From: Methanoculleus sp. MH98A
Lineage (GTDB): Archaea > Halobacteriota > Methanomicrobia > Methanomicrobiales > Methanoculleaceae
Length of the DNA stretch: 35,932 bases
Assembly (NCBI RefSeq): GCF_000691865.1
Contig: NZ_JMIO01000030.1
Coordinates: 1 to 35,932 of the forward strand
Reading direction: 5' to 3'
Shown: one piece after another, positions 9,188 through 29,619 of the stretch
Layout: every line of letters starts with the position of its first letter
How positions within the stretch are numbered: position 1 is the first letter of the stretch
Translations under genes and position numbers: made by a program
Notes under the pieces: model-generated
Told to the model about the DNA's origin: nothing
What the model saw: only the letters and a program-made list of their open reading frames with translations
Databases searched by the model: none

Positions 9188-9250
9188 ATCAGGTTAACTA
9201 CCATAATTTAAGTAGCTTAACACCTGATTGTCGTTTTGTCACAGAGGTGA
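9188..9250 (+). promoter_or_regulatory. fdhA1 promoter with inverted repeat around the TATA box
   Basis: ATCAGGT (9188-9194) and its complement ACCTGAT (9222-9228) form arms that continue imperfectly inward (GTTAACTAC on the left; GTAGCTTAAC on the right), enclosing the TATA-like AATTTAAG (about 9206-9212). The predicted transcript begins near 9235, and GAGGTGA (9244-9250) is a strong ribosome-binding site seven bases before the start codon. Symmetric arms flanking a TATA box fit a regulator that blocks TBP/TFB access; that role is inferred. Confidence 0.5.
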
Positions 9251-9257
9251 CAAAAAC

Positions 9258-11324
9258 ATGACGCTGAAGTATGTTGCCACAACGTGCCCTTATTGCGGTA
9301 CGGGATGCAGTTTCAACCTCGTCGTCCAGGACGGCAGAGTTGTCGGAACGGCACCGTACCGCCGCTCACCCGTGAACGAGGGAAAGGTCTGCCCCAAGGG
9401 GACCTACGCTCATGAGTTCGTGAACAGCCCGGACCGCCTCACGAAGCCGCTCATCAAGAAAAACGGCAAATTCGAGGAAGCGACCTGGGACGAGGCCTAC
9501 GACCTGATCGCCCGGAAGTTCAAGTCGTACAAACCCGATGAGTTCGCGGCGCTTGCATCGGCCCGTGTCTCCAACGAAGAGAACTACCTGCTGATGAAGT
9601 TCACCCGCGGTGTGATGAAGTCCCGCCACATCGACCACTGCGCCAGGCTCTGCCATGCATCCACGGTTGCGGGTCTTGCCGCCTCGTTCGGCTCCGGTGC
9701 GATGACCAACTCCATCGGCGACATCGCCGAGTCGAAGTGCGTCTTCATTCTCGGGTCCAACACATTCGAGCAGCACCCGCTCATCGGGCGGAGGGTGATG
9801 CAGGCGAAGAAGAACGGCGCGAAGATCATCTACGCCGACCCGCGCTACACCGCGACCGCGAAGCAGGCCGACCTCTACATGCCGTTTGTGTCCGGCAGTG
9901 ATGTCGCCATCCTCAACTGCATGATGCAGGAGATCATCAAGAACGGCTGGGAAGACAGGGAGTTCATCGCCAACCGGACGAAGGACTACGAGAAACTCAA
10001 GGAAGTCGTCATGAAAGACACTTACAGCCTTGAGAACGTCTCGAAGATCTCCGGTATTCCCGCAGAGAGCCTCAAGACCGCCGCCGAGTGGTTCGGCACC
10101 GCCGAGTCCTCAGCGCTCCTCTACTCGATGGGTATCACCCAGCACACCGTCGGCGTCGACAACGTCCGGTCGACTGCCAACCTCCAGATGCTCACCGGCA
10201 ACCTGGGCAAGCGCGGCGGCGGCGTGAACGCGCTCCGTGGCCAGAACAACGTCCAGGGCGCCTGCGACATGGGTGCGCTCCCGGTCGTCTTCACCGGCTA
10301 CCAGAAGGTCATCGACGAGGCCGTCCACAAGAAGTTCGCCGACGCCTGGGGCTTTTCCGACGGCATCTGCGAGCCGAAGAACGGCTACGAGGTCACCGTC
10401 ATGATGGATGTCCTGACCGACAACCCCGGCGAGCTCAAGTGCATGTACATCATGGGCGAGAACCCGATGCTCTCCGACCCGGACCTGACCCACGTCAAGC
10501 ACGCCATCGAGAACCTGGAATTCCTGGTGGTCCAGGACATCTTCCTGACCGAGACCGCCGAACTCGCCGACGTCGTGCTGCCTGCGGCATGTTACGCGGA
10601 GCGCGACGGCACCCAGACCAGCACCGAGCGGCGCGTCCAGATGTGGCGCAAGGCCCAGGACCCGCCCGGCGAGGCGAAGGTCGACTGGCAGATCATCAGC
10701 GAACTCGCCGCGAAGATGGGCTACGCCGACCAGTTCCCCTACCGGAGCGCCGAGGAGATCTTCAACGAGATCGCCGCCCTCACGCCGTCCTACCACGGGA
10801 TGAACTACGAGCGGTTGAGCAGGCCCGAAGCACTCCACTGGCCCTGCCCCGCAGTCGACCACCCCGGCACACCTATCCTGCACATCGGCAAGTTCTCGCA
10901 CCCCGATGGCATGGGCGTCTTTGCGCCCCTCGAGTGGAAACCGCCGGCGGAAGTTCCCGACGCGGAGTATCCGTTCGTGCTCACGACCGGCCGTGTTCTC
11001 TGGCACTGGCACACCGGCACCATGACCCGCCGCTCCGCGACCCTCGATCATGAGGTCCCCACCGGCTGGATCGAGATCAACCCCGAGGACGCGCAGGCAC
11101 TCGGCATCAAGGACAAGGAAATGATCCGTGCCGTCACCCGCCGTGGGTCCGTCGACGTCCCCGCGAGGGTGACCGGTGACATCATGAAGGGTGTCATGTT
11201 CATGCCGTTCCACTTCAAGGAATGTGCCGCGAACGTCCTGACGAACAACGCACTCGATCCGATCGCAAAGATCCCCGAGTTCAAGGCCTGTGCTGTGAAG
11301 GTCGAGAAGATTACGGAGGCCTGA
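9258..11324 (+). CDS. fdhA: Formate dehydrogenase alpha subunit, copy 1
   Basis: Catalytic subunit oxidising formate to CO2 at a molybdenum or tungsten bis-pterin site. The 688-residue protein starts with CPYCGTGC and a later C45 that bind a [4Fe-4S] cluster, then ARVSNEENYLL and DHCARLCHASTVAGL, in which C132 (codon TGC at 9651) is the metal ligand and H133 the conserved partner. It is thus a cysteine, not a selenocysteine, enzyme. GITQHTVGVDN and the C-terminal pterin-binding part (TGRVLWHWHTGTMTRRS) are intact. The start at 9258 was preferred to 9228 because GAGGTGA lies just before it and copy 2 begins at the same residue. Electrons pass to FdhB, encoded two bases downstream. Confidence 0.97.
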   Translation: MTLKYVATTCPYCGTGCSFNLVVQDGRVVGTAPYRRSPVNEGKVCPKGTYAHEFVNSPDRLTKPLIKKNGKFEEATWDEAYDLIARKFKSYKPDEFAALASARVSNEENYLLMKFTRGVMKSRHIDHCARLCHASTVAGLAASFGSGAMTNSIGDIAESKCVFILGSNTFEQHPLIGRRVMQAKKNGAKIIYADPRYTATAKQADLYMPFVSGSDVAILNCMMQEIIKNGWEDREFIANRTKDYEKLKEVVMKDTYSLENVSKISGIPAESLKTAAEWFGTAESSALLYSMGITQHTVGVDNVRSTANLQMLTGNLGKRGGGVNALRGQNNVQGACDMGALPVVFTGYQKVIDEAVHKKFADAWGFSDGICEPKNGYEVTVMMDVLTDNPGELKCMYIMGENPMLSDPDLTHVKHAIENLEFLVVQDIFLTETAELADVVLPAACYAERDGTQTSTERRVQMWRKAQDPPGEAKVDWQIISELAAKMGYADQFPYRSAEEIFNEIAALTPSYHGMNYERLSRPEALHWPCPAVDHPGTPILHIGKFSHPDGMGVFAPLEWKPPAEVPDAEYPFVLTTGRVLWHWHTGTMTRRSATLDHEVPTGWIEINPEDAQALGIKDKEMIRAVTRRGSVDVPARVTGDIMKGVMFMPFHFKECAANVLTNNALDPIAKIPEFKACAVKVEKITEA

Positions 11325-11326
11325 AC

Positions 11327-12478
11327 ATGGTAGCTAAAGGCGATATGGTCTACACGTGGGCGGCAGACGCCGATGTGCTGAAGAAGGGGGAGTGCGGGGG
11401 TGCGATCACCGCCCTGCAGCAGTATGCCCTGAAGTCCGGCATGGTGGACGCTGTCCTTGCCGTCAAGAAGGGTGCGGACCTCTACGACGCGGTGCCGACC
11501 GTGATCACCGATCCTGCGGAGATCGCAGAGACGGCGGGCTCGCTCCACTGCGGGACGCTCCTGCTCTCGAAACTGGTGAAGGACTACCTCGATAACAACA
11601 AGACCGCGAAACTCGGCGTCACCGTCAAGGGCTGCGACACGATGGGCCTTATCGAGCTCGCGAAGCGGAATGCGGTCGATATGGACCGCCTCCTCCTGCT
11701 CGGCGTGAACTGCGGCGGCTCCGTCAGTCCGGTCCTGGCCCGCAAGATGATCGCCGAGAAGTTCGAGGTCGACCCCGACCTGGTTCACAAAGAGGAGATC
11801 GACAAGGGCCAGTTCATCATCGAGTATGAGGGCGGCCATAAAGGGATCAAGATCGACGACCTCGAGGACGAGGGCTACGGCCGCCGCAGCAACTGCCGCC
11901 GGTGCCTCTACAAGGTCCCGCGCCAGGCGGACCTCGCCTGCGGCAACTGGGGCGTCATCGGGGAGAAAGCCGGGAACGCCACGTTCGTCGAGGTCTGCTC
12001 CGAGAAGGGGGCACAACTTCTTGACGCCGCCGCAAAAGCCGGGGCCGTCAACACCGAGCCTGCGAACCCGAAGGGGATCGAGATCCGCGGCAAGGTCGAA
12101 GGCGCCATGCTGAATCTCGGCAACAAGTGGCGGAAGAAGGACTTCGAGGCGCTCGCCTCCGATCTCTGGGGCACCATCGCCCGCGAGACCGGCCGGTGCA
12201 TCAAGTGCTACTCCTGCATCGAGAACTGCCCGGTCTGCTTCCCGGTAGCGGACGAACTCAAAGGAAACTCCAGGATGGTCACCTCCGGAGAGGTTCCGCC
12301 GAACCCGATGTTCCACCTCCGACGGTTCGCGCACATCTCGGACTCCTGCATCAACTGCGGGCAGTGCGAGGAGCTCTGTCCGATGGACATCCCGCTTGCG
12401 CTCTTCTCCCACGCCATCAGATCCGAGGGCGACACTACGTTCGAGCCCAAGCTCGGGAAAGCACCCTACACCAACTAA
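11327..12478 (+). CDS. fdhB: Formate dehydrogenase beta subunit, copy 1 (short, altered Fe-S tail)
   Basis: FrhB-type subunit that carries FAD and iron-sulfur clusters and reduces coenzyme F420 with electrons from FdhA; in formate-grown methanogens it may also feed heterodisulfide reductase. The 383-residue protein has the F420/FAD domain (GECGGAITAL near 25, VKGCDTMGL, GVNCGGSVSPV, SNCRRCLYKV, DLACGNWGVIG) and two C-terminal ferredoxin motifs (CIKCYSCIENCP and CINCGQCEELCP). Compared with copy 2 it lacks the extra CVEC cysteines after the first motif and about 30 C-terminal residues. GGAGG at the end of fdhA1 is its ribosome-binding site. Confidence 0.96.
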   Translation: MVAKGDMVYTWAADADVLKKGECGGAITALQQYALKSGMVDAVLAVKKGADLYDAVPTVITDPAEIAETAGSLHCGTLLLSKLVKDYLDNNKTAKLGVTVKGCDTMGLIELAKRNAVDMDRLLLLGVNCGGSVSPVLARKMIAEKFEVDPDLVHKEEIDKGQFIIEYEGGHKGIKIDDLEDEGYGRRSNCRRCLYKVPRQADLACGNWGVIGEKAGNATFVEVCSEKGAQLLDAAAKAGAVNTEPANPKGIEIRGKVEGAMLNLGNKWRKKDFEALASDLWGTIARETGRCIKCYSCIENCPVCFPVADELKGNSRMVTSGEVPPNPMFHLRRFAHISDSCINCGQCEELCPMDIPLALFSHAIRSEGDTTFEPKLGKAPYTN

Positions 12479-12480
12479 CC

Positions 12481-12487
12481 TTTTTTT
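12481..12487 (+). terminator. T-tract terminator after fdhB1
   Basis: Seven T begin two bases after the fdhB1 stop codon, separating the two fdh operons. Confidence 0.55.
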
Positions 12488-12629
12488 GTCTGACGCGTTA
12501 TTCCTGAGCGCATCCGGGATCCGGTCGATTTCATGCTCCTGAATGCCTGTTCGGACAAGAATGGTCGATATCGCACCGGGCTCCCGGCAAAAAGCATGCT
12601 TTGCCCCACACTTATTCATCAAAAAAGTG

Positions 12630-12685
12630 GGTGTTAATCACTATAGTTAAATATTCTGAACCCCGTATTTCTATGTATCCGAGGT
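12630..12685 (+). promoter_or_regulatory. fdhA2 promoter
   Basis: TTAAATAT (about 12647-12654) is a good TATA box; transcription would start near 12677, and GAGGT (12681-12685) lies seven bases before the fdhA2 start. GGTGTTAA, just upstream (12630-12637), also occurs on the minus strand in the right arm of the fdhA1 repeat, hinting at a shared regulator, but the full inverted repeat is not present here. Confidence 0.5.
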
Positions 12686-12692
12686 TTTAACC

Positions 12693-14759
12693 ATGGATCT
12701 CAAGTATGTACAGACCACATGCCCGTACTGCGGTACGGGGTGCAGCTTCAACCTCGTTGTGAAGGACGGGAAGGTTGTCGGCACACAACCTTACAAGCGT
12801 TCTCCGGTCAACGAGGGAAAAGTCTGCCCCAAGGGCACTTACGCTCACGAATTCGTGAACAGCCCGGACCGCCTCACAAAGCCGCTCATCAAAAAGGACG
12901 GCAAATTCGTCGAGGCGACCTGGGACGAGGCCTACGACCTGATCGCACAGAAGTTCAAGTCCTACAAGCCCGATGAGATTGCCTGCCTCTCCTCAGCCCG
13001 TGTCTCGAACGAAGAGAACTATCTGCTGATGAAACTGGCACGCGGCGTCTTCAAGACGCGCCACATCGACCACTGCGCCCGGCTCTGCCACGCGTCCACT
13101 GTCGCCGGTCTCGCCGCCTCGTTCGGCTCCGGTGCGATGACCAACTCCATCCTCGATATCGCCGAGTCGAAGTGCGTCTTCGTCATCGGGTCCAACACAT
13201 TCGAGCAGCACCCGCTGATCGGCCGCAAGATCGTCCAGGCCAAGCTGAACGGCGCAAAGGTCATCGTCTTCGACCCGCGCTACACGCCGACCGCCAAGCA
13301 GGCCGATCTCTACGCCTCCTTCTACTCCGGCACCGATGTGGCCATCCTCAACTGCCTGATGGGAGAGATCATCAGGAACGGATGGGAGGACAAGGAATGG
13401 GTCTCGAAGCGTGCAAAGGGATACGAGGAGCTCAAAGCGGTCGTGCTCAAGGATGATTATCTCCCCGAGAACGTCGAGAAGATCTCCGGCATTGCCGCTG
13501 CGGATCTCAAGACCGCAGCCGAATGGATCGGTACCGCCGAGTCCTCCGCGCTCCTCTACTCGATGGGCATCACCCAGCACACCGTCGGTGTCGACAACGT
13601 CAAGTCGACCGCCAACCTCCAGATGCTGACCGGAAACATCGGCAGGCGTGGTGGCGGCGTGAACGCGCTCCGTGGCCAGAACAACGTCCAGGGCGCCTGC
13701 GACATGGGTGCGCTCCCGGTCGTCTTCACCGGCTACCAGAAGGTCATCGACGAGGCCGTCCACAAGAAGTTCGCCGACGCCTGGGGCTTCCCCGACGGCA
13801 TCTGCGAGCCGAAGAACGGCTACGAGGTCACCGTCATGTTCAACGTCCTGACCGACAACCCCGGTGAGCTCAAGGCGATGTACATCATGGGCGAGAACCC
13901 GATGCTCTCCGACCCGGACCTCACCCACGCGGAGCATGCACTCGAGCAACTCGAGTTCCTGGTGGTCCAGGATATCTTCCTGACCGAGACCGCCCAGCAC
14001 GCAGACGTCGTGCTGCCCGCCACCTGCTACGCAGAGAAGGAGGGCACCCAGACCTCCACCGAGCGGCGTGTCCAGATGTGGCGCAAGGCCCAGGACCCGC
14101 CGGGCGAGGCGAAGGTCGACTGGCAGATCATCAGCGAAGTGGCGGCCGCCATGGGCTACGCCGACCAGTTCCCCTACCAGAGCGCCGAGGAGATCTTCAA
14201 CGAGATCGCCGCCCTCACGCCGTCCTACCACGGGATGAATTACGAGCGGCTCAACCGGCCCGAAGCACTCCACTGGCCCTGTCCCTCCGAGGACCACCCC
14301 GGCACACCTATCCTGCACATCGGCAAGTGTTCGCACCCCGATGGCATGGGCGTGATGCACCCCATCGAGTGGAAACCCCCGGCGGAAGTCCCCGATGCGG
14401 AGTACCCCTACATCCTCACCACCGGACGGTGCCTCTGGCACTGGCACACCGGGTCCATGACCCGCCGCTCCGCGACCCTCGATACCGAGGTCCCGACGGG
14501 CTGGATCGAGATCAACACCGAGGACGCAAAGGCGCTCGGCATAGCAGACAAGGAGATGGTCCGGGCGACCTCCCGCCGTGGCACGGTGGACGTCCCCGCG
14601 AAAGTGACCGACGAGATCAAGAAGGGCGTCATGTTCATGCCGTTCCACTTCGCCGAGTGTGCAGCGAACAGACTGACTAACAACGCACTCGACCCGATCG
14701 CAAAGATCCCTGAGTTCAAGGCTTGTGCTGTGAAGGTCGAGAAGATTACGGAGGCCTGA
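12693..14759 (+). CDS. fdhA: Formate dehydrogenase alpha subunit, copy 2
   Basis: Second formate-oxidising catalytic subunit, 688 residues, aligned without gaps to copy 1. It shares CPYCGTGC plus C45 for the [4Fe-4S] cluster and DHCARLCHASTVAGL with the metal-ligand Cys at 132. Differences concentrate in residues about 155-285 and near the C-terminus, whereas the stretch corresponding to 13653-13789 is identical at the DNA level to 10218-10354 of copy 1, which points to gene conversion. It has its own promoter and pairs with fdhB2 two bases downstream. Confidence 0.97.
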   Translation: MDLKYVQTTCPYCGTGCSFNLVVKDGKVVGTQPYKRSPVNEGKVCPKGTYAHEFVNSPDRLTKPLIKKDGKFVEATWDEAYDLIAQKFKSYKPDEIACLSSARVSNEENYLLMKLARGVFKTRHIDHCARLCHASTVAGLAASFGSGAMTNSILDIAESKCVFVIGSNTFEQHPLIGRKIVQAKLNGAKVIVFDPRYTPTAKQADLYASFYSGTDVAILNCLMGEIIRNGWEDKEWVSKRAKGYEELKAVVLKDDYLPENVEKISGIAAADLKTAAEWIGTAESSALLYSMGITQHTVGVDNVKSTANLQMLTGNIGRRGGGVNALRGQNNVQGACDMGALPVVFTGYQKVIDEAVHKKFADAWGFPDGICEPKNGYEVTVMFNVLTDNPGELKAMYIMGENPMLSDPDLTHAEHALEQLEFLVVQDIFLTETAQHADVVLPATCYAEKEGTQTSTERRVQMWRKAQDPPGEAKVDWQIISEVAAAMGYADQFPYQSAEEIFNEIAALTPSYHGMNYERLNRPEALHWPCPSEDHPGTPILHIGKCSHPDGMGVMHPIEWKPPAEVPDAEYPYILTTGRCLWHWHTGSMTRRSATLDTEVPTGWIEINTEDAKALGIADKEMVRATSRRGTVDVPAKVTDEIKKGVMFMPFHFAECAANRLTNNALDPIAKIPEFKACAVKVEKITEA

Positions 14760-14761
14760 AC

Positions 14762-16000
14762 ATGGCAGCAAAAGGCGATATGGTCTACGCATGGGCAGCC
14801 GACGCCGCCTGCCAGGAGAAGGGCGAGTGCGGCGGAGCGGTCACCGCTCTGCTGACGCACGCGCTTAAGTCCGGCATGGTGGACGCTGTCTTTGCCGTAA
14901 AGAAGGGACAGGATCTCTACGATGCTGTGCCTGTGCTCATCACCGACCCGGCCGAGATCGCACAGACGGCAGGCTCGCTCCACTGCGGGACGCTCCTGCT
15001 CTCGAAACTGATCAAGAAGTACCTGGACGGCGCCGAGAACATGCGGATCGCCATGCCGGTAAAAGGCTGCGATGCGATGGGCCTCTACGAGCTCGCGAAG
15101 CGCAACCAGGTCAACCTGGACAACGTCCTGATGATCGGTCTCAACTGTGGTGGGTCCGTCAGCCCGGTCGCCGCCCGGAAGATGATCCGCGAGAAGTTCG
15201 AGGTCGACCCTGACGATGTGGTCAAGGAAGAGATCGACAAGGGCCAGTTCATCATCGTCACGAAGGACGGCCAGCACAAGGGCATCTCGATGGACGAACT
15301 CGAGGAGGCAGGCTACGGCCGCCGCAGCAACTGCCGCCGCTGCAAGATGAAAGTCCCGCGCCAGGCGGATCTCGCCTGCGGCAACTGGGGCGTCATCGGG
15401 GAGAAAGCCGGCAAAGCCACCTTCGTCGAGGTCTGCTCTGAGAAGGGTGCAAACCTCCTTGATGCAGCCATAAAGGCCGGAGAACTCAAGACCGAGGCCG
15501 CGAACCCGAAGGGTATCGAGATCCGCGGCAAGGTCGAGAACGCGATGCTGAAGCTCGGCGACAAGTGGCGGGCGAGAGACTTCGAGGGCCTCGGCGAGGG
15601 CAAGGAGCGCCTGAAGAAGATCATGGACGCGACGAGCCGGTGCATCAAGTGCTACGCCTGCATCGAGAACTGCCCGATCTGCTACTGCGTCGAGTGCAGC
15701 ACGAAGAAGGCTTACCTGGTCGAGCCTGGTCAGGTTCCGCCGCCCTTCATGTTCCACCTGATCCGGTACGCTCACATCTCGGACTCGTGTATCAACTGCG
15801 GCCAGTGCGAGGAGAACTGCGCGATGGATATCCCGAACGCGCTCTTCATGCACGCCCTGCAGGTCGACCTTCAGGAGATGTTCGGCCACACCCCGGGTGT
15901 GGACATGGAACTCCCGGTGCTCGCGCTCGTCGAGGAGCAGACGGAACGCAAGCGTCTCTCCGACACCGGCAGCGACCAGATCTTCAACATCTTCGAGTAA
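14762..16000 (+). CDS. fdhB: Formate dehydrogenase beta subunit, copy 2
   Basis: F420-reducing FrhB-type partner of FdhA2; 412 residues, 29 longer than copy 1. It contains the same flavin/F420 domain (GECGGAVTAL, VKGCDAMGL, GLNCGGSVSPV, SNCRRCKMKV, DLACGNWGVIG) and two ferredoxin motifs: CIKCYACIENCPICY, directly followed by the extra cysteines CVEC, and CINCGQCEENCAMDIP. The C-terminal extension ends RKRLSDTGSDQIFNIFE. GGAGG at the end of fdhA2 provides the ribosome-binding site. A run of seven T follows at 16016-16022. Confidence 0.96.
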   Translation: MAAKGDMVYAWAADAACQEKGECGGAVTALLTHALKSGMVDAVFAVKKGQDLYDAVPVLITDPAEIAQTAGSLHCGTLLLSKLIKKYLDGAENMRIAMPVKGCDAMGLYELAKRNQVNLDNVLMIGLNCGGSVSPVAARKMIREKFEVDPDDVVKEEIDKGQFIIVTKDGQHKGISMDELEEAGYGRRSNCRRCKMKVPRQADLACGNWGVIGEKAGKATFVEVCSEKGANLLDAAIKAGELKTEAANPKGIEIRGKVENAMLKLGDKWRARDFEGLGEGKERLKKIMDATSRCIKCYACIENCPICYCVECSTKKAYLVEPGQVPPPFMFHLIRYAHISDSCINCGQCEENCAMDIPNALFMHALQVDLQEMFGHTPGVDMELPVLALVEEQTERKRLSDTGSDQIFNIFE

Positions 16001-22979: not shown

Positions 22980-23666
22980 TTACAACTGGGCCGAGGGGGT
23001 CGCCCTGGCCGTCCCGGGAACGGCCACTCTCTTTTCAAGAATGGTGACGGCGATGGTCGTGATCGAGACCAGCACGAGGTAGACGATGCCGACGGCCGCG
23101 AACGACTCCGTGTAGGTGAAATACTTCGTCGCCACCAGTTTCCCCGCCCCGGAGAGTTCGATCACCGTGATCATGTAGGCAAGCGACGAGTACTTGATCA
23201 GGTAGATGAACTCGTTCGAGAGCCCCGGTATCGCCCGGCAGAGCGCCTGCGGCAGGATGACGTTTCTGATCGCCTGCCACCGGGTCATCCCGAGCGCCTG
23301 GGCGGCAACCATCTGGCCTTCCTTGATCGATATGAGGGCGCCCCGGATGTACTCGGCGTTATACGCTCCGTTGCAGAGGATAAATCCGACCACCGACGCC
23401 ACGAACGCGGTGAAGGTAATCCCGATCGACGGGAGCCCGAAGTAGAGGATGAAGAGAAGGAGGAGCAACGGCGTACCCTTGATGAGAAAGACATACGTCT
23501 TGCAGAGCCAGGATATGACGGGGTTGCCGTACTGCCTTCCCACCGCGACGGCGATCCCGAGCGCGAGACCGAACGGGGCGGAGCACGCGATCAGCTGCAA
23601 TGTCACGACCAGGCCCTGCATCAGCGCCGGGAGGAGAATCTCAAAGAAGAATACTGCCTGTTCCAT
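22980..23666 (-). CDS. Polar amino-acid ABC transporter permease (second)
   Basis: A 228-residue inner-membrane permease of the His/Glu/Gln family with about five spans and the ATPase-contact loop (RGALISIKEGQMVAAQALGM then RNVILPQA). The start at 23666 was chosen because GAGGAG lies five bases upstream; the frame opens earlier with TTG at 23678. It is the last gene of a permease-ATPase-permease operon read leftward, eight bases after the ATPase stop. The two permeases would form a heterodimer. The substrate is probably an amino acid or related polar compound, by family. Confidence 0.93.
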   Translation of the reverse strand: MEQAVFFFEILLPALMQGLVVTLQLIACSAPFGLALGIAVAVGRQYGNPVISWLCKTYVFLIKGTPLLLLLFILYFGLPSIGITFTAFVASVVGFILCNGAYNAEYIRGALISIKEGQMVAAQALGMTRWQAIRNVILPQALCRAIPGLSNEFIYLIKYSSLAYMITVIELSGAGKLVATKYFTYTESFAAVGIVYLVLVSITTIAVTILEKRVAVPGTARATPSAQL

Positions 23667-23674
23667 GCCGCTCC

Positions 23675-24430
23675 TCAATCATCCATCCGGGAATCGATCC
23701 GGCCGATGAAGTCCTTCATCCGGGTGAACCGCGGGTCATGCAGGAGCAGGTCCGGCGACCCCTGCTCGGCAACCACGCCGTTCTCCATGAAGAGAACCTC
23801 GTTTGCAACCGAGCAGGCAAACCCCATCTCGTGGGTGACGACGAGCATCGTCATCCCGTTGCGGGCCAGTTTCTTCATGACCTCGAGCACCTCCCTCGTC
23901 AGTTCGGGGTCGAGCGCGGAGGTCGGTTCGTCGAAGAGGATGACGTCCGGGTCCATGGCAAGCGCCCGGGCGATGGATACCCGCTGGGCCTGGCCGCCGG
24001 AGAGTTCCGCCGGGTAGTGGTCGGCCCAGTCCTCCAGCCCCACCTGCCGGAGTTCGGTGAGGGCCTTCTCGCGTGCCTCCGCCTTCCCCATGCCCCTGAC
24101 CTTCAGGAGCGCCAGTTCGACGTTTTTGACGGCGGTGAGGTGGTCGAAGAGGAAGAAGTTCTGAAAGACCATCCCGATCTTCTGCCGGAAGTAGTTGATC
24201 CGCGCCCCCGAGTTCGTGACCTCCTCCCCGTCGAGCCAGACCGTCCCGCGGTCGGGCGGCGTCAGCTGGTTGATGCACCGGAGAAGCGTGCTCTTTCCCG
24301 TCCCGGAGGGGCCGATGAAGACCTTCGTCTCGCCGCGGCGAACGTCGAACGAGACTCCCCGCAACACTTCGTTACCCCCGAAGGACTTGTGTATGTCCTC
24401 GACTCTCAACACAATGTCGTTGTTGTTCAT
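23675..24430 (-). CDS. Polar amino-acid ABC transporter ATPase
   Basis: A 251-residue ATP-binding subunit of the GlnQ/HisP type. Walker [10 protein letters not shown] near residue 40, Q-loop MVFQNFFLF, signature LSGGQAQRV, Walker [13 protein letters not shown] and switch His in VVTHEMG are all present. It drives uptake through the two flanking permeases, with three and eight bases separating the genes, so they are certainly one operon. No C-terminal regulatory domain is present. Confidence 0.95.
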
Positions 24431-24433
24431 GCT

Positions 24434-25111
24434 CTACATCGCTCCGGTTCCGAATCCCGGGATTGCTATCCTCTTCTCCAGCCTGTGCAGGAGTTTGAGC
24501 CCCCCGTAGTTCAGGACAATGAAGATCCCCGCTGCAGCGAGGTAGATCGGCATCGTTATGTGGGTCTGCGTAACCATCCGCGACGTAATGGTGAGCAGTT
24601 CCACGACCCCGATCGCGTAGCAGACCGCCGAATCGGTCAGGATGTTGGGGTACTCGTTCGACCAGCCCGGGAGCGCTATGCGCACCGCCTGGGGGAGGAT
24701 GACCGAACGGATGGCGGTGAGCCTGCTCATCCCGAGCGACCGCGCCGCGATCATCTGCCCTTCACCGACTGACTGGATGGCACCCCGGAAGATCTGGGAC
24801 TGGTAGGCCGCCCCCCGGAGGCCCAGCACGACCGCCCCGACGACGAACGCCGAGAGTTCACCGAGCCCGATTGCCGGGAATATGCCGAACCAGAAGAGGA
24901 AGAGCAGGACGAGGATGGGGAGGCCCCTGAAGAACCATACGTAGATCCCGACGACCCACCGGACCGGCCGCGCCCCGTAGACCTGGCCGAGCGCCATGGG
25001 CAGTCCGAGAAGGACTCCGAGGCCGAGGGCGGCGAGGACAAGGCCGAGGGTAGAGGCGATGCCTGAAAGGAGATACGGTAACCAGTCGAGAAGTATCGGC
25101 AAAACGTCCAT
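24434..25111 (-). CDS. Polar amino-acid ABC transporter permease (first)
   Basis: A 225-residue permease with about five membrane spans and the family loop RGAIQSVGEGQMIAARSLGM followed by RSVILPQAVR. First gene of the operon. A TATA-like TTTATTTT lies on the minus strand at about 25197-25204, predicting a leader of about 60 bases. No binding-protein gene is adjacent; the lipoprotein at 28523-29317, on the same strand and of matching family, is the likely partner. Confidence 0.93.
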   Translation of the reverse strand: MDVLPILLDWLPYLLSGIASTLGLVLAALGLGVLLGLPMALGQVYGARPVRWVVGIYVWFFRGLPILVLLFLFWFGIFPAIGLGELSAFVVGAVVLGLRGAAYQSQIFRGAIQSVGEGQMIAARSLGMSRLTAIRSVILPQAVRIALPGWSNEYPNILTDSAVCYAIGVVELLTITSRMVTQTHITMPIYLAAAGIFIVLNYGGLKLLHRLEKRIAIPGFGTGAM

Positions 25112-27339: not shown

Positions 27340-28464
27340 CTACCGTCGGTGCAGGTGCCGGTGGTGGATGTCGGGCTGGTGCGGGTGCTCGTGTGCGAGT
27401 TCGGCATGGGCGTGCACGTGGGAGTGCTCCCCGGCCGCCGAGAGCGGCGGATCGCCGGGCTCGTGGTCGTGATCGTGGTGGAGGTCGTCGTGGCGGTGAC
27501 GGTGCTCGTGGACGGTTGCCGGGTGCCGGTGGGGGTGTGAATGCTCCTCGGAGACCATCAGCCAGGCCCCGAGCGCCATGACGGGCAGCGCGACGTAGAA
27601 GGCGCCCGCCGGGAGTTCGGCGAAGAGCAGGAGCGAGAAGAGGACGCCGAAGAACGGGGAGACGGCGAGGAGCGAACCCGCCCGGGCTGCACCGATGCCC
27701 CGGAGGGCGAGGAGGAAGAGGATGCTCGTCAGGCCCCCGTAGCAGAGGAACCCGACCGCCATGGCGGCGGCAGCCGTGGCCGTGGCCGGGAGGTGCTCCC
27801 CGGCGGTGAGCGCGACGAGGAGCGTGACGGTGCCGGCGCCGATCCCCTTTACAGAGATGACGAGGAGGGGATCCTTCGCCGAGAGCCGCTGTCCCAGGTT
27901 GTTGTCGACCGCCCAGAAGAGGCAGGTGAGCAGGATGCCGAGTGCCGGGAGGGAGAGGCCGAGTCCGGCGGCCGGGTTCCAGGTGAGGAGGAGGCACGAT
28001 GCGGTGATGCACCCGAGCGCAACCCAGACGCGGCGGCTCACCCACTCGCCAAAGATCGTCGCGGCAATCAGCGTCGTCGCAACGGCCTCGAAGTTCAGGA
28101 GGAGGGCCGCCGTCGCCGCAGGCGTTCCCGGGAGGCTGTACACCAGGGTGACCGGTGCGAGAAGCCCTCCGAAGAGCGTCACGCCGATGAGCCAGGGGAT
28201 CTCGTTCCTCCCGGGCGGCGCCTCGACGTGGCTCCGCCGGGTGCCCGCCGCCGTTCCGGCGAGGGAGAAGAGCAGTGCGCCGCAGCCGCTTCCGAGCGAG
28301 ACCAGTGCGGCGAGAGCGAGCGGCCCGATATCGGCGAGGAGGAGTTTCGTGAACGGGGCGCTCCCGCCGATCAGGACCGCCGTCGCCAGCGCACAGAGGA
28401 CGGGTGTCCGGTACTGCGTCAGGGTGGATCCGTTCTCTACGGCGGCGGGTTTGCGCGGGTACAG
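27340..28464 (-). CDS. EamA/DMT-family transporter with histidine-rich tail, start uncertain
   Basis: Membrane transporter of the drug/metabolite superfamily: two EamA repeats of about five spans each, then a cytoplasmic tail of about 70 residues carrying 23 His (patterns such as HSHPHRH, HEHRHRHDD, HHDHDHE, HVHAHAE), which should bind Ni, Zn or Co. A GTG at 28182 would cut away the first spans, but the same frame continues upstream with clear transporter sequence (VLCALATAVLIGGSAPFTKL), so the gene must begin near 28464. No ATG, GTG or TTG exists there; CTG at 28464, eight bases after GGAGG, is used here. A one-base error is an alternative. It converges on pfkA with a 13-bp gap. The substrate is unknown. 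Confidence 0.8.
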   Translation of the reverse strand: MYPRKPAAVENGSTLTQYRTPVLCALATAVLIGGSAPFTKLLLADIGPLALAALVSLGSGCGALLFSLAGTAAGTRRSHVEAPPGRNEIPWLIGVTLFGGLLAPVTLVYSLPGTPAATAALLLNFEAVATTLIAATIFGEWVSRRVWVALGCITASCLLLTWNPAAGLGLSLPALGILLTCLFWAVDNNLGQRLSAKDPLLVISVKGIGAGTVTLLVALTAGEHLPATATAAAAMAVGFLCYGGLTSILFLLALRGIGAARAGSLLAVSPFFGVLFSLLLFAELPAGAFYVALPVMALGAWLMVSEEHSHPHRHPATVHEHRHRHDDLHHDHDHEPGDPPLSAAGEHSHVHAHAELAHEHPHQPDIHHRHLHRR

Positions 28465-28522
28465 GGGAGTTGCCTCCGGGATGATTGAATGTCGAGAAAA
28501 ATGGGGGACGAATCGTCCCCGG

Positions 28523-29317
28523 TTACGCCAGGTTGTGCTTCTCTTTGAGTTCTTCCCAGTAGGGGTCGGCCTGCAGTTCCGCGATCCCCTCGTTCATGAA
28601 CTCGAGGAGCGCGGTGTCCTCCTTGCGGATAGCGACGCCGAACTGTTCCTGCTCCTGCGTCTCGACGGAGCCGATGGTCTTCAGCGGCTTGCCTTCGATG
28701 ATGTCCTGGATGGAGACGTCGTCGTACATGACCGCGTCGATCCTGCCGATCTCGAGGTCACTGACGGCAGCCGGTGTGTCGGGGTAGTATTTCAGGTTGT
28801 CTTTGGGCAACTTCCCGGTCTCGATCAGGTTGTCCTCGATCCAGATGGCGGCGGTGCATCCCCGCTGCGCTCCGATGACCACCTTTCCGGCAAGGACCTC
28901 ATCAAGCGTCACGTTCGAGTCCTCGCGGGCTACGACGTCCTGGTTGATCGACCAGTAGGGGTTGCTGAAGCTGACCTTCTCCTGCCGCTCGGGGGTGATC
29001 GACATCCCGGCATAGACCATATCGATCTTCCCCGCCTGGAGGGTCGGGATGATGGCGTCCCAGTCGACCGCCATGAACGTCACCTCGATGCCCTTCTTCT
29101 CGGCGATCCACCTCATGGAATCGACATCGAATCCCTGGGCGTTCCCGTCCTTGTCGATGTAGCTAAAGGGAGGATATGCGCCGTCGATACCGACGATGTA
29201 GGAGTCTTTCAGTTCCGCTCCGTTGGTCTGCTCGGTCGTGCCGGTGCACCCTGCACCTGCGACTGCCAGCACTGCGACGATACATGCAAGCAGCGTGAGA
29301 ATGCCATGCATTTTCAT
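28523..29317 (-). CDS. Amino-acid ABC transporter substrate-binding lipoprotein
   Basis: A 264-residue extracytoplasmic binding protein. The N-terminus is a lipoprotein-type signal (ILTLLACIVAVLAVAGAGC) with the Cys as lipid anchor, then a Thr/Glu linker and the type II binding fold: IVGIDGAYPPFSYIDKDG, GFDVDSMRWIAEKKG, WDAIIPTLQAGKIDMVYAGMS and TPERQEKVSFSNPYW, all typical of polar amino-acid binders. It probably delivers ligand to the permease operon at 22980-25111, 3.4 kb away on the same strand. A TATA-like TTAATTTTA (minus strand, about 29341-29349) and no ribosome-binding site suggest a leaderless mRNA. Confidence 0.93.
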   Translation of the reverse strand: MKMHGILTLLACIVAVLAVAGAGCTGTTEQTNGAELKDSYIVGIDGAYPPFSYIDKDGNAQGFDVDSMRWIAEKKGIEVTFMAVDWDAIIPTLQAGKIDMVYAGMSITPERQEKVSFSNPYWSINQDVVAREDSNVTLDEVLAGKVVIGAQRGCTAAIWIEDNLIETGKLPKDNLKYYPDTPAAVSDLEIGRIDAVMYDDVSIQDIIEGKPLKTIGSVETQEQEQFGVAIRKEDTALLEFMNEGIAELQADPYWEELKEKHNLA

Positions 29318-29340
29318 AAGGAAGGGATTAGTTAGACGAG

Positions 29341-29349
29341 TAAAATTAA
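29341..29349 (-). promoter_or_regulatory. Predicted TATA box of the binding-protein gene
   Basis: TTAATTTTA on the minus strand, preceded by AAAAGG resembling a BRE, lies 24-32 bases before the start codon at 29317. Confidence 0.4.
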
Positions 29350-29619
29350 CCTTTTGATTTGGCGCTGCCGGAGAGACGGTTGGCCTGACAGCCAGCGAAA
29401 TCTCTTATCCCGGGTCAAATCCCCGCCGTTGCCGCCCTTCCGCTCGGACCGGTGCGGCCTCCGGCGCTCTGCCGCCGTTCACCGCAGGAGGATCCGGTCG
29501 CTTCCGGCCGGCACGGAGCAACCATCCCCGCCGCAGTACGGCCGATAGGTATTTATCGTATCTTACCTCCTCTGAGGCCGCCTCCCGGAAGGGAAGCGCA
29601 GATATGGATGGTGAGCAGC

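Follow-up and report, generated by a model that had tools for sequence, protein, structure and literature searches.

The window, a stretch of 35,932 nucleotides from Methanoculleus sp. MH98A, carries on its minus strand a gene for a CnrT-like EamA/DMT exporter at positions 27340..28464, consisting of 374 codons counted from a CTG and followed by a stop codon at 27342-27340. Directly upstream and on the same strand, the exporter has as its conserved neighbour a gene for an amino-acid type binding protein (SBP_bac_3, 28523..29317), and a terminator-like hairpin with a U run was seen in the upstream sequences between the two genes (28497..28520, minus strand). The other neighbours are PFK, a DeoC-type aldolase and a set of amino-acid ABC genes, namely a permease, an ATPase and a permease of the polar-amino-acid type (22980..25111, minus strand), whose families also occur near the exporter in several other genera. 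Elsewhere in the window (9228-16000) two successive pairs of neighbouring genes belong to the same two families (about 690 and 420 codons), an arrangement resembling a tandem duplication.

The exporter showed an EamA domain in both halves (Pfam, E 3.9e-20) and 23 histidines in its last 70 residues, in agreement with the earlier note on this DNA, which had described an EamA transporter with a 23-histidine tail. It is the sole gene matched by the EamA model in its own genome. An AlphaFold2 model built from 12 sequences returned a mean pLDDT of 67.1, with values mostly between 70 and 91 by ten-residue blocks in the core and low confidence for the tail from residue 307. The model and the fold matches delimited a membrane core at residues 16-304 (27553..28419, minus strand) with about ten predicted helices, as in the CnrT subfamily; helices 1, 2 and 3 were predicted at residues 16-42, 48-72 and 89-113, respectively. 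Foldseek matched the model with solved DMT proteins (SLC35B1, the triose-phosphate translocator and 5i20; best E 1e-6), which share the ten-helix DMT fold but show 11-21% identity in the best fold matches and, to our knowledge, have different substrates and no such histidine tail. A PDB sequence search with the whole exporter protein as query returned no relative.

Past the upstream stop, the first in-frame ATG, GTG or TTG of the exporter is the GTG at 28182, corresponding to codon 95, and the frame ahead of the first two and a half helices contains none of these codons. According to the helix positions in the predicted model, a start at 28182 would therefore remove two helices and part of the third; the earlier claim that the N-terminal spans lack a standard start codon was thus borne out, this GTG lying inside helix 3. 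Codon 1 is instead a CTG (28462..28464, minus strand), preceded by a GGAGG Shine-Dalgarno (SD) sequence (28473..28477, minus strand). A total of 23 Methanoculleus loci were read, and the start counts use 22 of them, since one (L033) begins at a contig edge; excluded from them were a partial match (G022), a second copy (G026) and a divergent copy (G006, L062), the last being counted among the 21 other archaeal loci. In 22/22 orthologues with upstream sequence, exactly 8 nt separate GGAGG from codon 1, which is CTG in 21 of them and TTG in one (L029). The third base of codon 1 is invariant, compared with differences in 26-51% of sequence pairs at the third bases of codons 2-6. Residue 1 is the sole position that has ATG or a codon one base away from it in all 22 orthologues, the next best position reaching 14. 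The ten triplets ahead of the CTG, read as codons, gave pN 0.38 and pS 0.40, as in noncoding DNA, and codons 2-15 gave pN 0.19 and pS 0.37, the coding signal beginning at codon 1. As 6 of the 31 invariant leucine columns (21 sequences) keep one single codon, conservation of CTG alone is not decisive, and the case for the CTG start is supported by the SD sequence, the TTG variant, the scan for near-cognate codons and the change in pN/pS. On sequence grounds, a conserved SD-CTG start with substitution only among start-competent codons is well supported in Methanoculleus, and the proposal that the CTG at 28464 after GGAGG serves as the start gains from its being the sole common near-start position.

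A read error was ruled out, as 21 other genomes, among them the single-contig G019 and G029, share this start region. A truncated protein from the GTG at 28182 was ruled out as well, by its position inside predicted helix 3 and by the purifying selection acting on residues 22-94 (dN/dS 0.28, 21 Methanoculleus sequences); orthologues starting at this GTG had been put forward as a refuting observation, and the outcome speaks against refutation, the frame ahead of the GTG being conserved in all orthologues.

In 18 of the 23 Methanoculleus loci, the sequence ahead of helix 1 has no canonical start. The five exceptions have a TTG at codon 1 (L029), a TTG about 20 codons upstream (L026), a TTG upstream together with an ATG at 15 (L030), an ATG near 14 (L033) and an ATG at 13 (L034). 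A canonical start ahead of helix 1, most often ATG at about residue 10-18, was found in all 45 other loci (24 bacterial and 21 archaeal, the latter comprising 20 from other genera and the one divergent Methanoculleus copy). An SD match of 4 nt or better occurs at only 4 of the 20 archaeal starts checked among these loci, the other 16 having none. Many Methanoculleus loci have a second CTG near residue 15, and translation might begin there, at some other codon devoid of SD or, yielding a truncated protein, at GTG 28182, the GGAGG-CTG pair being incidental. Such a choice would fit the starts near residue 11-19 in most other genera and the ATG at residue 13-15 in L030, L033 and L034, but it appears highly improbable: the residue-15 codon has no SD and is not conserved, the GGAGG spacing and the wobble base of codon 1 are invariant, the segment from residue 22 to 94 is under purifying selection and 28182 falls within helix 3. 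With initiation at the SD-led CTG, the simplest history would begin with an ATG near residue 14 whose SD was weak or absent and which gave way in Methanoculleus to the SD-led CTG, with the addition of about 14 residues. In PMC6237735, aIF1 in Sulfolobus is reported to favour discrimination against non-canonical starts; searches of open-licence papers by title or abstract opening found no archaeal CUG start.

Codon analysis and alignment placed the histidine tail at residues 305-374 (27343..27552, minus strand). Unit comparison resolved it into two tandem units of about 27 residues with the pattern HxHxHxHx4HxHxHx(H/P)Dx(1-2)HHxHxH, unit 1 at residues 308-334 with 12 histidines (27463..27543, minus strand) and unit 2 at residues 347-372 with 11 (27349..27426, minus strand). 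Outside the histidines, and in a register chosen by eye, the two units agree at 0.205, against a shuffled mean of 0.084, with 0/2000 shuffles as high. The codon analyses were carried out on 21 full-length Methanoculleus orthologues, L033 and L034 being omitted, and all 23 tail histidines are invariant among them. These residues are encoded by 378 CAC and 105 CAT codons, with pN 0 vs pS 0.83 at the 23 positions, and dN/dS is 0.15 for the whole tail vs 0.21 for residues 95-304 of the membrane core. Histidine occupies 20 of the 23 tail positions in all 58 tailed relatives compared (34 from archaea, 24 from bacteria; omitted were nine Methanoculleus loci, repeated loci and L033) and the remaining three positions in 55-57 of them; the alignment program may favour placing histidine on histidine, but the pattern is evident even before alignment. 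The computations show a fixed tail architecture under strong purifying selection. Neutral low-complexity drift was ruled out by the pN of 0 at the histidine codons and by histidine conservation in the 58 relatives. As to orthologues lacking the tail, which had also been suggested as a refuting observation, the outcome is again against refutation: 22 of the 23 Methanoculleus loci keep it and L034 has lost it. In this locus (G013:C237) the orthologue stops just past the first two tail histidines, with the tail gone and the core kept.

A search of plasmid records with the exporter protein returned 58 records, all with less than 60% identity, and a second search, with a homologue from Cupriavidus as query, brought up CnrT, whose annotation is nickel diffusion facilitator of the cnrYXHCBAT locus on pMOL28 of Cupriavidus metallidurans CH34. 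Exporter and CnrT share 43% identity over 347 residues, membrane part and tail included (E 2e-64), so that homology to CnrT, like the DMT fold, is shown by computation. The two proteins have the same DMT core and, position by position, the same two-part histidine tail. The earlier note set the tail apart from what is usual in the DMT family; within the CnrT-like subfamily it is standard and not an oddity. CnrT differs in having an ATG start and in belonging to the cnr RND operon, whereas the archaeal exporter has a CTG start after a strong SD, is about 14 residues longer at the N-terminus and adjoins the amino-acid type binding protein; neither the cnrYXH regulators nor the CnrCBA RND pump lie beside it. 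In the literature, Ni(II) is exported by DmeF, CnrT and CnrCBA, a single determination giving 11 copies of CnrT per cell (PMC11647595), cnrT is assigned to the DMT family (PMC7019866), CnrT is described as an inner membrane exporter (PMC9045368) and Nies 2003 is cited for nickel efflux (PMC10133563). The terms 'histidine-rich' and 'His-rich' are absent from PMC11647595 and PMC7019866, and searches of open-licence papers by title or abstract opening found no archaeal CnrT. The eamA gene of Cupriavidus Tn6048 was also considered, but its identity with the same gene is not established (PMC12029693).

The surroundings of tailed bacterial homologues were inspected in 24 plasmid stretches hand-picked from the two match lists, 21 of which were annotated. 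Explicit metal genes were present in 11 of the 21, a fraction that is not an unbiased estimate owing to the hand-picking; six had only RND/TolC/HlyD-type efflux genes and four had neither. The metal genes included Cus/Czc-type RND pumps with copper-binding proteins and, in one neighbourhood, dmeF with a metal-sensing repressor.

A tree of 69 rows was calculated on the membrane core alone, with the same omissions as in the count of tailed relatives and a single outgroup. The archaeal sequences and two Bacillota form one branch (99/100), apart from the proteobacterial tailed sequences including CnrT; as the branch leading to the outgroup is very long, the position of the root is uncertain, and so is strict monophyly with CnrT. 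Tail-less proteins are scattered within the archaeal part, and the label needs 7 changes over the tree, at least 5 of them forced by well-supported branches, a distribution best read as repeated tail loss. One of the Bacillota copies (L045, Acetoanaerobium noterae, in a record listed as plasmid) has a full histidine tail and falls inside the archaeal branch, a placement that suggests transfer between clostridia and methanogens. The exporter protein is present in 73 of the 135 genomes of the class and, at E 1e-60, in 43 of 295 genomes sampled across the phylum; 10 of the 35 same-genus genomes gave no match. One metagenome-assembled genome (G026) contains two near-identical binding-protein/exporter pairs on the short contigs C68 and C69 (L003 and L004), perhaps a strain mixture.

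In the archaea, 24 of 26 Methanoculleus places and 3 of 22 places in other genera have the SBP_bac_3 gene directly upstream of the exporter in the same orientation; it is next door in three separately fetched loci (L051, L052, L056) and one gene away in L055. A block ATCAAAAGGTTAATTTTAC (29340-29358), which lies about 22 nt before the ATG of the binding-protein gene and is conserved with few exceptions across 21 Methanoculleus loci, resembles an archaeal promoter whose leader would be very short; no operator was identified before this gene in an alignment of the upstream region judged by eye. The stretch between the two genes as a whole folds no better than shuffles. Given the promoter-like block and the terminator-like hairpin, the exporter may be expressed only weakly, in second place behind the binding-protein gene.

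Where the substrate of a DMT protein is known, it is mostly an amino acid or a metabolite, which counts against metal export. The amino-acid gene context in archaea leads us to keep an amino-acid or metal-chelate substrate as an alternative. The exporter could carry an amino acid, a similar metabolite or a metal-amino-acid chelate, with the histidine tail as a cytoplasmic metal sensor switching it on and the adjoining binding protein and ABC importer handling the same amino acid. The recurrent SBP_bac_3 neighbour speaks for this arrangement, as do the relatives of the binding protein, whose nearest models and structures are amino-acid binders, and the existence of EamA exporters of opine-type metallophores, described in PMC7438024. 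The latter, of the CntI type, resemble our protein in family and in metal-linked export but differ in exporting a chelator beside its biosynthesis genes; a term search in PMC7438024 gave no mention of a His-rich region, and no nicotianamine-synthase-like or opine dehydrogenase genes were found among the scanned neighbours of the exporter. The named tailed relatives, however, are nickel exporters or lie amid metal-efflux genes, the binding-protein neighbour is missing from most copies outside Methanoculleus and its amino-acid ligand is only putative, which makes this alternative possible but rather unlikely.

Nickel is needed by methanogens and histidine-rich stretches are found in nickel chaperones, so the tail might be mainly a cytoplasmic nickel store or chaperone on an inward transporter supplying nickel for methanogenesis. 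NikR is encoded in the genome (NikR_C was found twice, once at a contig edge), so that nickel-dependent regulation is likely present. Supply of this kind is nonetheless very unlikely, since CnrT, the nearest relative with a name, serves efflux and belongs to a resistance locus, the same His-tailed module occurs in many non-methanogenic bacteria, often beside metal-resistance genes on plasmids, and the gene has no match in part of its own genus. CnrT being an efflux protein, the link to nickel-dependent methanogenesis advanced in the earlier note can be kept at most as homeostasis. RcnA, a nickel/cobalt efflux protein with a His-rich region, combines a His-rich region with nickel efflux, as is proposed for the exporter, and gave a weak NCBIfam match spanning the tail (E 0.0056); membership was ruled out, the score being 15.9 bits vs a cut-off of 195.

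With a tail common to CnrT position by position, the exporter probably rids the cell of excess nickel or a comparable metal, and we regard as reasonably probable that it is an archaeal CnrT-family exporter, probably for Ni(II)/Co(II), whose translation begins at a conserved SD-led CUG. The earlier proposal that a His-tailed DMT protein transports metal is thereby supported. Initiation would occur at the CUG, positioned by the strong GGAGG, presumably with methionine as first residue. The ten helices would form a DMT exporter that most likely clears the cytoplasm of Ni(II), though Co(II) or some other divalent metal may be the substrate, and the two histidine units of the tail, on the probable cytoplasmic side, would bind metal and hand it to the pore or gate the exporter by metal load. 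Nickel as the substrate is suggested by homology, and the outward direction likewise. Against this reading, no metal gene was found among the ten genes scanned around the archaeal copies (nine of them next to copies that lack the binding protein), an amino-acid type ABC system is what is conserved nearby, the archaeal and proteobacterial branches are separate and some relatives are tail-less.

A bolder and improbable extension of CnrT-type efflux would have an AUG with little or no SD exchanged genus-wide for an SD-driven CUG when the exporter landed behind the binding-protein gene and its hairpin. CUG and hairpin would then hold the level low, the substrate would be a nickel-amino-acid chelate, and ABC importer and exporter would constitute one amino-acid/metal balance system.

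The exporter adds a new branch, an archaeal one, to a known kind of protein, and the surprise lies in the genus-wide SD-CTG start and in the strictness of the two-unit histidine module. CnrT-type metal efflux provides a specific hypothesis for a gene family spread through methanogens, and the module, with its spacing held between archaea and bacteria, lends itself to direct tests of metal binding. About two dozen genomes share the CTG start, and gene finders restricted to ATG, GTG and TTG would miss or truncate the gene there; this start also offers a natural system for how the archaeal ribosome accepts CUG behind a strong Shine-Dalgarno sequence.
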